Below are positions 17,011-59,515 of a stretch of 64,000 nucleotides of DNA, piece after piece. Numbering within the stretch: the first letter of the stretch is position 1; each line of letters opens with the position of its first letter. This DNA is from an uncultured Alphaproteobacteria bacterium (GTDB lineage: Bacteria; Pseudomonadota; Alphaproteobacteria; Rs-D84): the NCBI GenBank assembly GCA_947175875.1, contig CAMWON010000001.1, forward strand, positions 207,809-271,808. Reading direction: 5' to 3'. The notes beneath the pieces were generated by a model that did no database searches, was not told where the DNA came from, and was given only the letters and a program-made list of their open reading frames with translations. The translations under genes and the position numbers were made by a program.

Positions 17011-17196
17011 AATAGGGAACCTATTATGCGAGATTAGTACTCTCGCTCAACAACCGCCCTGCGCAGGCGTAAAATGCCAATCCCATTTCGGGGGTTGGAA
17101 GCGGTGAATATATTGAATAAGCCGATAGCATGTTGTTGTGCGAAGTACTAAGTCCAGCCCCCGCCCTGTATTACATGGCGGCTTTTATATTTTTTT
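17011..17196 (+). ncRNA. Structured RNA of the repeated family, copy A1
   Basis: No protein frame fits this interval. Pairings visible in order: a small hairpin (AATAGG/CCTATT); P1 GCGAGA/TCTCGC with loop TTAGTAC (17034-17040); P2 CAACAAC (17048-17054) with GTTGTTG (17132-17138); a hairpin ending in ggcg then taaaa; P4 CCAATCCC with GGGGTTGG (17091-17098); P5 enclosing gaatatattgaata. The P1 loop is complementary to GTACTAA at 17145-17151, a pseudoknot. TCCAGCCCCC (17153-17162) can pair with GGGGGTTGGA in competition with P4, and abuts a CCGCC/GGCGG hairpin with a T-rich run. Function unknown. Confidence 0.75.
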
Positions 17197-17255: not shown

Positions 17256-17447
17256 GTAATGGTCCCCATTACAAGAACGAGGAGTAGAAACCTCTAATAC
17301 ACGATCGCCTGTGATATGTGGGCGTTAAACTTCCAACTTGTCGGTTGGAGGCGGGCTCTTATATATTGAAAAGGTCCGAACAATTCATCGTGTATTGTTT
17401 TTCTACCCTCCAACCACCATTATTTCTCTGGTGGCTTGATTTTTTTT
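17256..17447 (+). ncRNA. Structured RNA of the repeated family, copy A2 (leader of the small protein at 17473)
   Basis: This second tandem copy has the same helix order as A1 but different bases. P1 is GAGG/CCTC with loop AGTAGAAA, and the loop pairs with TTTCTAC at 17400-17406. P2 is AATACACGAT with ATCGTGTATT (10 bp). P4 is CCAAC with GTTGG. The loop reads atatattgaaaa. GGTTGGAGG (17343-17351) can alternatively pair with CCTCCAACC (17407-17415), whose end overlaps a CCACC/GGTGG terminator hairpin with T8 (17440-17447). A TATAAT at 17236-17241 lies at a suitable distance upstream. It ends 25 bp before the small gene at 17473. Confidence 0.75.
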
Positions 17448-45831: not shown

Positions 45832-45914
45832 CTGGACCGCCACGCATACGCTCGCGGTGACAATGGAGCTGGGCTCGCTGTCATTGCGAGGGGCGGCAGC
45901 CCCGCGGCAATCCA
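45832..45914. repeat. MITE-like palindromic repeat, copy a
   Basis: An 83-bp unit with the core gtcattgcgag..cagccccgcggcaatcca. Nearly identical to 46296-46379 and sharing its right half with 45944-46026. No coding sequence. Such units built around gcaatcca/tggattgc occur in many bacterial genomes. Confidence 0.8.
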
Positions 45915-45943
45915 ACATGTAAAGCGGCGGTGGCATTTATCAA

Positions 45944-46026
45944 CTGGATTGCTTCACTTCGTTCGCAATGACAGTCGTGCTTGAATCGCTGTCATTGCGA
46001 GGGGCGGCAGCCCCGCGGCAATCCAG
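45944..46026. repeat. MITE-like palindromic repeat, copy b
   Basis: 83 bp with perfect 9-bp terminal inverted repeats (CTGGATTGC / GCAATCCAG) and an internal imperfect palindrome around ttcgcaatgaca and tgtcattgcgag. The left half differs from copies a and c. Confidence 0.85.
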
Positions 46027-46032
46027 TTTTAT

Positions 46033-46061
46033 TTGCTTTCCGAGATTTTTTAGGATATAGT
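46033..46061 (+). promoter_or_regulatory. Promoter of structured RNA copy B
   Basis: TTGCTT (46033-46038), 17-bp spacer, TATAGT (46056-46061). The same promoter stretch, right after a MITE copy, precedes copy C. Confidence 0.65.
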
Positions 46062-46066
46062 ACTTA

Positions 46067-46240
46067 CTGCAGCGTTGTGTTAGCGCTGCAAGGTTTAGCA
46101 ACCTTTTACACTCGGTCCGGAAGGACTTTAAACATTCACTCCACCCAAGGTTGGAGGGTCGCCAAATAAATTGAATAGGCGACACTATGAGTGTATAGAT
46201 TGCTAACCTCCAACCGCTTAAATTATTTAGTGGTTTATAA
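46067..46240 (+). ncRNA. Structured RNA of the repeated family, copy B
   Basis: Helix order as in copy A1. An initial GCAGCG/CGCTGC hairpin; P1 AAGG/CCTT with loop TTTAGCAA, pairing to TTGCTAA (46200-46206); P2 ACACTC with GAGTGT; a GTCC/GGAC hairpin then tttaaac; P4 CTCCACC with GGTTGGAG; P5 GTCGCC/GGCGAC closing aaataaattgaata. GGTTGGAGG (46149-46157) may instead pair with CCTCCAACC (46207-46215), which overlaps the AACCGCT/AGTGGTT terminal hairpin. No T-run follows, so termination here would be weaker. A CCCCGC/GCGGGG hairpin lies 30 bp further on. Confidence 0.75.
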
Positions 46241-46295
46241 CACCAATCACTATAAAAATGCATGTCTCCCCGCTTCGGCGGGGGTTGTCTTTTGG

Positions 46296-46379
46296 CTGGA
46301 CCGCCACGCATACGCTCGCGGTGACAATGGAGCTGGGCTCGCTGTCATTGCGAGGGGCGGCAGCCCCGCGGCAATCCAG
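46296..46379. repeat. MITE-like palindromic repeat, copy c
   Basis: Nearly identical to copy a at 45832. The ~40 bp to its right (ttttatttgctttc, then gattttttaggatatagtac) match those right of copy b, so the MITE and the adjacent promoter appear to have been duplicated together. Confidence 0.8.
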
Positions 46380-46385
46380 TTTTAT

Positions 46386-46414
46386 TTGCTTTCTGAGATT
46401 TTTTAGGATATAGT
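46386..46414 (+). promoter_or_regulatory. Promoter of structured RNA copy C
   Basis: TTGCTT, 17-bp spacer, TATAGT, identical to the promoter of copy B except for one base in the spacer. Confidence 0.65.
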
Positions 46415-46420
46415 ACTTAC

Positions 46421-46605
46421 TGCAACGGGGATTCCGTTGCCCGAGAATACAGACTCGGTCATTGGTTGCCTGCACAGGCGTAAAACTTTCAACCCTTATC
46501 GGGGTTGGGAGGTTGGCTGAATATATTGAATAGGCCAACACATACCAATGATGTGTCTGTAAGCTCCCGCCCCGGTCTTCTCAACAATGATTTTGGCGGT
46601 TGCAA
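46421..46605 (+). ncRNA. Structured RNA of the repeated family, copy C
   Basis: GCAACGG/CCGTTGC hairpin; P1 CCGAG/CTCGG with loop AATACAGA, pairing to TCTGTA (46556-46561); P2 CATTGGT/ACCAATG; GCCT/AGGC hairpin then taaaa; P4 CAACCC with GGGTTG; P5 TTGGC/GCCAA closing gaatatattgaata. GGGAG (46507-46511) can pair with CTCCC (46564-46568), which overlaps a CCGCC/GGCGG hairpin. The compensatory change from CTCCAACC to CTCCC with matching partner supports the long-range helix. The hairpin is followed by ttgcaatta, which is also the -35 region of copy D. Confidence 0.75.
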
Positions 46606-46627
46606 TTATAAATGTAGATGATACAAT
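46600..46627 (+). promoter_or_regulatory. Promoter of structured RNA copy D
   Basis: TTGCAA (46600-46605), 16-bp spacer, TACAAT (46622-46627). Confidence 0.65.
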
Positions 46628-46630
46628 ATA

Positions 46631-46817
46631 ATTGTAATGGGCATTGCCCCTGTTGCAAAAGTGCGAGCTAAAATCTCGCTTAGTAGAACCGCCTGTGCAG
46701 GCGTAAAATGCTCCACCACCCGCTGGTTGGAGTCGGCGAATATATTGAATAAGCCGGGATAAGTTCTACTATCATTTTAGCTCCAACCATCTTTCTTTAG
46801 ATGGTTTTTGTTTTTAT
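46631..46817 (+). ncRNA. Structured RNA of the repeated family, copy D (leader of the small protein at 46835)
   Basis: GGGC/GCCC hairpin; P1 GCGAG/CTCGC with loop CTAAAAT, pairing to ATTTTAG (46774-46780); P2 AGTAGAAC/GTTCTACT; CGCCT/AGGCG hairpin then taaaa; P4 CTCCACC with GGTTGGAG; P5 CGGC/GCCG closing gaatatattgaata. GGTTGGAG (46725-46732) can also pair with CTCCAACC (46781-46788), whose AACC is part of the terminator AACCATC/GATGGTT followed by a T-rich run. It ends 18 bp before the small gene. Confidence 0.78.
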
Positions 46818-46834
46818 CAAACCGGGGGCTTGCT

Positions 46835-47071
46835 ATGGCAAAAAACACTGATAACACCAATATGCTGGCGGAAAATGAATATCCGTCTGCGCTGATATAT
46901 AAACTCTGTGAATTTTATAACAAGTATCCCGATTATAAAACCGGGATTATGGATATTTCCATTCTGGCGCGGATTGTGCATACCGAACTGGAAAAATTTA
47001 CGCGTCGCCCGCACAAACAGGTGACCGAGGTGTTTTTCGACCGCGAGCCGCCAACCGCCCGCTTCGTTTAA
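46835..47071 (+). CDS. Small conserved protein following the structured-RNA array
   Basis: 78 residues from ATG 46835 (ggggg upstream). Paralogue of the 92-residue protein at 17473: LIYKLCEFYNKYPDYKTG, LARIVHTELEKF and RRPHKQVTEVFFD align without gaps. The N-terminal ~20 residues are not conserved. Probably a small helical cytoplasmic protein with a basic patch (RRPHKQ). Function unknown; it follows three tandem structured RNAs, just as the paralogue follows two. Confidence 0.75.
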   Translation: MAKNTDNTNMLAENEYPSALIYKLCEFYNKYPDYKTGIMDISILARIVHTELEKFTRRPHKQVTEVFFDREPPTARFV

Positions 47072-58361: not shown

Positions 58362-59321
58362 TTAATCAGATATGTGATACGTGCCTGCGGCGGACTTTAT
58401 GTTCATAACGCCGCGCGCCGCACCTGGTAAAAAGTTGATATAACACACACCGTCCGACGTCTTGATGTTCAGCGCCGGCGTCGTCAATTTTTCCGCCCAC
58501 AACGGCCATGTCTGGCCGCCGCTCGCGCGCAGCTCTGTCTTGCCGTGCGGGCACAGTTCCGCGCATGTCCCCAGCCCCGTGTATTTCAGGCCATCCTCGC
58601 ACAGAATTGCGCACATGTTATTCTTTGACTGGCCCGCCGTGCAATCCGCGTTCAGCCAATATGTCGCATATCCCGTGGCGCATACCGCGTTTTCCGGCGT
58701 GGTCAGCGTCGCCGCATCAACTGTTATGTCGTGAAAGTTTTCCGGACAGTCGCCGCGCGTTAGCGCCGTGCACTCGCCGTCGGACAGGTACTGGCCCGCC
58801 CCGCACAGTTTTGCGCCGTATGCGACCAAAACACCGTTGTATATGGGTGTTAAAAATTCCGGTAATTCATATGCGTTATAAGAGTTCATACATTCCTGCA
58901 ACGCGGCCGACGGCGATGAAAATGTCGATTGGCCGATTGGTGTCTTGTATGACCCCTCCGGACAGCGCCCGGGGGACTTTTTCTGGCATGTGCCGGCGGC
59001 AAATTGCTCGTCTGCGGCGCACAATGTCGCGCCGTATTTAACCAGAACGCCGCTGTAAATCGCATGAAACATATCCGGCAGCTGCTGCTTGTCATATGCG
59101 TTCATGCACTGGTTCTTTAATGTCATTGCCGAATAAGTTGCCGATGCGATGACCGTTTCATAATATCCGGACGGACATTCGTTTTGCACCTTGTCGATGC
59201 ATGTGCCATTGCTCATCTGTTGGCCGTCTTCGCACAACCGTGCGCCGAACCGCACCACGGTGGCGGCATTCGCCGTCCCCTGGATCACAGCAATCGCCAA
59301 TAAAAAAATTACGCCTCTCAT
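58362..59321 (-). CDS. Secreted protein with three Cys-rich repeats, first gene of the DGR operon
   Basis: 319 residues from ATG 59321 (aggga upstream), where a signal peptide begins (to NAA). About residues 23-225 are three units of ~70 residues, each with VxYGAxLC, then a short CxxxxxxxCP, then a stretch ending PExFLTPIYNGV-like. A Cys-rich tail follows. No enzymatic motif. Probably a surface or extracellular protein, perhaps displaying or anchoring the two small proteins encoded behind it. A structured leader RNA (59342-59515) precedes it. Confidence 0.75.
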   Translation of the reverse strand: MRGVIFLLAIAVIQGTANAATVVRFGARLCEDGQQMSNGTCIDKVQNECPSGYYETVIASATYSAMTLKNQCMNAYDKQQLPDMFHAIYSGVLVKYGATLCAADEQFAAGTCQKKSPGRCPEGSYKTPIGQSTFSSPSAALQECMNSYNAYELPEFLTPIYNGVLVAYGAKLCGAGQYLSDGECTALTRGDCPENFHDITVDAATLTTPENAVCATGYATYWLNADCTAGQSKNNMCAILCEDGLKYTGLGTCAELCPHGKTELRASGGQTWPLWAEKLTTPALNIKTSDGVCYINFLPGAARGVMNIKSAAGTYHISD

Positions 59322-59341: not shown

Positions 59342-59515
59342 AAAAGTAAACCACCGGATACATTGGGTGGTTGGAGGTTCGAAACTATATAAGAAGCAAT
59401 AGCGGGTTTATTCAATATATTCACCGCCCTCCAACCAACGGTTGGAGATGTTTATTGTCCACCACGGACACTTCTTATACAGGTTCCGACGCCTGGCCGG
59501 GCAACACGCCTCGGC
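59342..59515 (-). ncRNA. Structured RNA of the repeated family, copy E (leader of the DGR operon)
   Basis: On the minus strand: GCCG/CGGC hairpin; P1 CAGG/CCTG with loop cgtcggaa, pairing to TTTCG (one G-U); P2 TATAAGAAG with CTTCTTATA (9 bp); GTCC/GGAC hairpin then aataaac; P4 CTCCAACC/GGTTGGAG; P5 GCGG/CCGC-type helix around gaatatattgaata. GGTTGGAGG can also pair with the downstream CCTCCAACC, which overlaps the final AACCACC/GGTGGTT hairpin. This is the same order as copies A1-D. It ends 21 bp before the first operon gene. Confidence 0.78.

Follow-up and report, generated by a model that had tools for sequence, protein, structure and literature searches.

The window, a stretch of 64,000 nucleotides, contains six copies (A1, A2, B, C, D and E) of an element that has the form of a leader of ~190 nt, comprising a 5' hairpin, hairpin P1 with its pseudoknot, a P2/P6 pseudoknot and an invariant GAAUA/GAAUA loop (Table 1). 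In copy D, P2' lies in the loop of P6, which makes P2/P6 a second pseudoknot, and the last 4 nt of the switch strand Z are part of the 5' arm of the terminator. The P5 loop of this copy probably consists of an internal loop, GAAUA/GAAUA, with a tetraloop as its cap. No gene directly follows the tandem upstream copies A1, B and C.

Table 1. Leader copies of the window and anatomy of copy D
Feature	Position	Strand	Remark
Copy A1	17028-17162	+	upstream member of tandem pair
Copy A2	17279-17418	+	followed by 92-aa ORF
Copy B	46090-46217	+	
Copy C	46441-46572	+	no good terminator in terminator scan
Copy D, P1 through Z	46663-46788	+	
Copy E	59369-59496	-	followed by 319-aa protein with export signal (58362-59321)
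Copy D promoter	46600-46632	+	-35 TTGCAA at 46600; -10 TACAAT (46622-46627) or TATAAT (46627-46632)
Copy D P0, 5'-end hairpin	46639-46649	+	from folding
Copy D P1 hairpin	46663-46679	+	stem 46663-46667/46675-46679
Copy D P1 loop, 5' pseudoknot strand	46668-46674	+	CTAAAAT
Copy D P2, 5' strand	46681-46689	+	TAGTAGAAC
Copy D P3 hairpin	46690-46703	+	then conserved TAAAA
Copy D P4 hairpin	46711-46732	+	
Copy D P4' strand	46725-46732	+	GGTTGGAG; partner P4 5' strand or Z
Copy D P5	46734-46756	+	invariant loop GAATATATTGAATAA at 46738-46752
Copy D P6	46758-46773	+	GATA 46758-46761 / TATC 46770-46773
Copy D P2'	46763-46769	+	inside P6 loop (P2/P6 pseudoknot)
Copy D 3' pseudoknot strand	46774-46780	+	ATTTTAG, partner of P1 loop
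Copy D switch strand Z	46781-46788	+	CTCCAACC
Copy D intrinsic terminator	46785-46812	+	AACCATCT-TTCTTT-AGATGGTT, T-rich tail
Gene after copy D	46835-47071	+	78-aa protein, no Pfam or PHROG match

A near-duplicate of copy D occurs elsewhere in the same genome (locus L002, 1564-1689) as a decayed copy whose P2' and pseudoknot are disrupted. Direct repeats of ~115 nt with REP-like palindromes (CTGTCATTGCGAGGGGCGGCAGCCCCGCGGCAATCCAG) sit ahead of copy B and again between it and copy C (45849-45963, 45960-46074 and 46313-46427).

Pairing of the P1 loop

The initial annotation had described the P1 loop as complementary to the stretch just before Z, and reading the sequence confirmed this complementarity in 6 of the 6 window copies (A1, TTAGTAC/GTACTAA; A2, GTAGAAA/TTTCTAC; B, TTAGCAA/TTGCTAA; C, TACAGA/TCTGTA; D, CTAAAAT/ATTTTAG; E, TCGGAA/TTTCGA, 6 bp with one G-U). 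Among 160 copies unselected for pairing, a duplex of at least 5 weighted pairs was found for 86% of the real partners versus 11% of partners swapped between copies. In a covariation test modelled on R-scape, with column substitutions redistributed over the branches of a FastTree tree of 142 sequences, pseudoknot pairs obtained the three highest scores of all column pairs, with E-values down to 2e-6. Seven of the ~7,000 column pairs had E<0.05 (three in the pseudoknot, one in Z/P4' and three in P5), these E-values being approximate since they derive from 60 null replicates and an exponential tail. Alignment A6 was 95.6% paired, with changes on both sides at all six pseudoknot positions, counts that are only illustrative because the A6 rows were pre-filtered for pairing. 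Copies outside the model-building set provided an unbiased check: the pseudoknot paired in 28 of 30, and the two others were the two weakest matches (E 0.005-0.007). The pseudoknot was also present in 7/7 loci of distant homologues from other alphaproteobacterial families, and all convincing further distant loci (11/11) kept it with 7-10 pairs; locus L263 was not convincing. Every convincing copy examined beyond the order of the host thus retained the pseudoknot. Loss of complementarity in most homologues had been named at the outset as the result that would speak against this pairing; the opposite was found.

Chance or compositional complementarity might be suspected from the shortness and AU-richness of the loops and from the rate at which swapped partners also reach five pairs. 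The difference between real and swapped partners, the phylogenetic null and the independent and distant copy sets stand against it, upholding the view of the initial annotation that coincidence is unlikely. Chance complementarity, to which we accord next to no probability, is refuted by the swapped-partner, covariation and untrained-copy results. Nearly every copy has a pseudoknot sequence of its own (102 distinct words among 141 copies), and the pseudoknot ends 0-3 nt before Z. The idea that the 5' stem of P1 lengthens the pseudoknot by pairing with CUCC of Z was rejected, as inspection of distant homologues revealed no joint change with Z.

Alternative helices and outputs

Segment-wise comparison with swapped partners revealed complementarity for P2 (z 56), P6 (z 10.9), Z/P4' (z 12.7) and P4/P4' (z 7.3), segmentation being used for P2 since this helix had been misplaced in the initial MAFFT alignment. 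P4' is able to pair with P4 or with Z, and both pairings covary; one of the few significant covariations is a Z/P4' pair. In several variants (for example, CTCCTGACC/GGTCAGGAGG/CCTCCTGACC in locus L035), all three strands P4, P4' and Z have changed in concert, indicating that the three-strand choice is conserved. RNAalifold applied to six distant homologues alone picked Z/P4', P6, P5 and P1. A P0-like hairpin was present in 132 of 149 copies versus 35 in shuffles. The P5 loop was near-invariant, GAAUA-N4-GAAUA occurring in 141/167 copies, a figure inflated by the many loci that were fetched by that pattern. A conserved aptamer-like core with invariant unpaired nucleotides, as in riboswitches, is provided by the P5 loop and, in distant homologues, by the internal loop. 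In C-type upstream tandem copies (L013 1285-1368, L040 1294-1374 and L042 1716-1799), the GAAUA motif is lost and P5 is a plain hairpin. These copies, which retain the pseudoknot and stand beside intact ones, are possibly non-responsive. Locus L042 also carries, at 1006-2550, a tandem array of at least six leader copies in 1.5 kb with no recognised genes between them.

A TATAAT-like box was located 6-8 nt before P0 in most copies (n=132). A terminator-like hairpin with a T-run followed Z in 158/167 copies, as counted without a shuffled control, and the 5' arm of the terminator takes 4 nt of Z in 92 of these copies. The next gene was on the same strand in 103 of 130 last copies, at a median of 71 nt after P2', and start codons in the own genome were mostly 44-58 nt after Z. 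Each unit thus runs from promoter through leader and terminator to the gene. The constrained same-strand distance to the gene is that of an attenuator and not that of a free trans-acting sRNA, and the mutually exclusive, conserved terminator and antiterminator helices are likewise those of an attenuator. In genome G351, four leaders (L251, L252, L257 and L262) have no U-tract, and their Z strand (CCUCC) pairs with the Shine-Dalgarno sequence GGAGG in folds of which three out of four beat shuffles (z below -2). Z appears to mask the Shine-Dalgarno sequence in these leaders, the same logic being applied to a different output.

Distribution and downstream genes

The host is a Candidatus Enterousia-like member, and most likely a species of Enterousia, within Rs-D84, the reduced-genome order to which Enterousia belongs (PMC12306168). 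A covariance model built from five own-genome copies, one of which had a bulged base removed for alignment (R1), gave 47 matches in the 0.95-Mb host genome, and a broader model (R2) gave 55. Of the 114 genomes sampled in the order, 99 carry the element, as do 13 of the 18 genera, and copy numbers range from 0 to at least 30 per genome. When named genomes were scanned with a pattern, all hits fell in MAGs labelled alphaproteobacterial, Rickettsiales or "proteobacterium" or left unnamed, Candidatus Enterousia intestinigallinarum and Ca. E. avistercoris among them. R2 also matched other alphaproteobacterial families. The distant loci L215-L221 kept P0, P1, the pseudoknot, P2, P4', P6 and Z with altered sequences; the P5 "loop" of most of these loci is seen as an AAAUA/AAAUA-like internal loop with an extra hairpin on top, compared to GAAUA-N4-GAAUA in Enterousia. 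A model built from six distant sequences only (R3) recovered the Enterousia copies (E 2e-12) and matched 14 of the 223 genera in the class sample, the own genus included. Phylum-wide, R2 with stricter filters found no match outside the own genus in 299 genomes. The leader is also carried by IMG/VR "viral" contigs (L180, L181 and L182), which may be phage or host DNA.

Exported proteins and small HTH regulators are over-represented among the targets, the counts being approximate as genes were called by a simple script. Among 83 downstream proteins, 15 matched HTH_31 and 11 matched HTH_3, whereas the 25 families listed for an equal number of background genes (83) from the same loci include no HTH family. 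An export signal, assigned by a crude rule, was found in 32 of 52 downstream proteins of at least 100 aa versus 107 of 533 background genes (p ~1e-9). Ten downstream proteins were compared with phage protein families: the HTH proteins matched regulator families, and the others either had no match or matched families of unknown function. Cysteine-rich exported proteins are numerous among the own-genome targets. A leader stands in front of each such gene at, for example, L222, L223, L225, L227, L228 and L233, and the Z variant of these leaders is often CCUCCUGAC or CCUCCUGGC. Among the distant targets, which were identified from their sequences by eye, are pilin-like proteins, lipoproteins and an HTH-like protein.

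A putative cis-acting switch

The comparative evidence, drawn from sequence, supports all of the proposed helices with both pseudoknots, the alternative Z/P4' and P4/P4' pairings, the overlap of Z with the terminator, the position of the promoter and the position and kind of the downstream gene. Since the P4' alternatives covary and Z overlaps the terminator or pairs with the Shine-Dalgarno sequence, we consider it probable that copy D is one copy of a cis-acting ON/OFF RNA switch in the 5' leader of an mRNA. Transcription would start at P0. In the OFF fold, P1 to P6 (P1, P2, P3, P4, P5 and P6) would form and the P1 loop would pair with the stretch before Z, so that Z could form the terminator or, in one distant lineage, occlude the Shine-Dalgarno sequence. 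The ON fold would instead pair Z with P4' (GGUUGGAGG), taking AACC from the terminator and allowing expression of the gene. We infer this direction of switching, as well as the existence of any signal that would drive it. The nested OFF fold beats forced Z/P4' pairing by a median of 8 kcal/mol in nearest-neighbour MFE folds, which ignore pseudoknots, and OFF is therefore the probable default. With the OFF fold this strongly favoured, the route to the ON fold is a difficulty for the switch model.

The proposal that the pseudoknot is a sensing or timing element stood in part. Its position before Z fits a choice between helices, the pseudoknot and the adjoining switch covary, and the pseudoknot most likely locks the OFF fold because it anchors the stretch next to Z, and it may act in timing. 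A role as the sensor is unlikely: the pseudoknot sequence differs between copies, and thus offers no shared recognition site, while the P5 loop is near-invariant. The P5 motif is the likelier sensor, and its invariant GAAUA/GAAUA loop is the likeliest candidate for the site of action of a protein or small molecule.

In PyrR-type and ribosomal-protein leaders, an RNA-binding protein shifts the choice between helices. A trans-acting RNA-binding protein, and not a small molecule, may similarly read the GAAUA/GAAUA loop and shift the P4/Z choice, a variant of the switch that we hold tentatively, at somewhat less than an even chance. A global protein regulator would fit with a single invariant loop being common to dozens of genes of mixed function, and the presence of copies without the GAAUA loop beside intact ones points the same way. 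The alternative that each copy is an independent sRNA gene, running from promoter to terminator next to an incidental gene, draws on the promoter and terminator that every copy has and on the tandem upstream copies without a gene of their own. We judge it improbable, since the gene starts on the same strand at a fixed short distance, the targets are strongly non-random, and Z covers the Shine-Dalgarno sequence of the next gene in the G351 leaders. The upstream tandem copies are possible exceptions to the cis-acting role: some copies may be free RNAs or decoys, because A1, B and C have no gene of their own and C seemingly has no terminator. The folds are very stable, as would be expected of a purely structural element whose folded 5' end and pseudoknot protect the mRNA, with the Z/P4' complementarity as a by-product. 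However, P4, P4' and Z change jointly in several variants, and two different outputs, the terminator and the Shine-Dalgarno sequence, both use Z, which makes this explanation very unlikely.

Searches of Rfam 15 (4227 families, gathering thresholds) detected nothing but tRNAs, both in the window and in five loci of homologues, and no match with E<=1 was obtained in 46040-46830. No description of the leader family was found in the literature, the comparison stopping short of the supplementary motif lists of a human-microbiome survey (PMC8040213), and the words RNA, repeat and intergenic are absent from the Rs-D84/Enterousia paper (PMC12306168). Like riboswitches with a transcriptional or translational platform, the leader has a conserved folded 5' domain, mutually exclusive helices, a terminator or Shine-Dalgarno-sequestering output and tandem copies. 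Unlike them, it can number as many as 55 in a single genome of 0.95 Mb, has exported proteins and HTH regulators as its targets instead of one pathway, varies its pseudoknot strands in nearly every copy and has no known ligand. In SAM-II, preQ1-II, c-di-GMP-II and other pseudoknotted riboswitches, the pseudoknot adjoins the expression platform. The same holds for the leader, but the latter has no Rfam match, another helix order, a P1 loop that pairs ~100 nt downstream and the second P2/P6 pseudoknot. T-box and PyrR/ribosomal-protein leaders, which are tRNA- or protein-responsive attenuators, share the choice between terminator and antiterminator, whereas the present leader has no Rfam match and, by inspection, no leader peptide or T-box sequence. 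Leader switches are known as a general kind; what appears to be new is this family, with its double pseudoknot, copy number and target set. On balance, we lean slightly towards an undescribed class of RNA switch that spans Alphaproteobacteria, is expanded to dozens of copies in reduced-genome gut symbionts and would be a master control of the exported proteome. In such a class, all copies would share one sensor loop (GAAUA/GAAUA), each would have a pseudoknot lock of its own, and terminator and Shine-Dalgarno-masking outputs would be interchangeable.

Little regulation is expected in less than 1 Mb of DNA, yet one genome has ~55 copies of the leader, most of them directly before a gene. The family is an entry point to the control of surface proteins in uncultured gut and termite symbionts and offers a new candidate sensor, of a ligand or a protein, whose many natural variants could be put to the test. 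Should a single signal control all copies, its discovery would account for much of the envelope regulation of these organisms.
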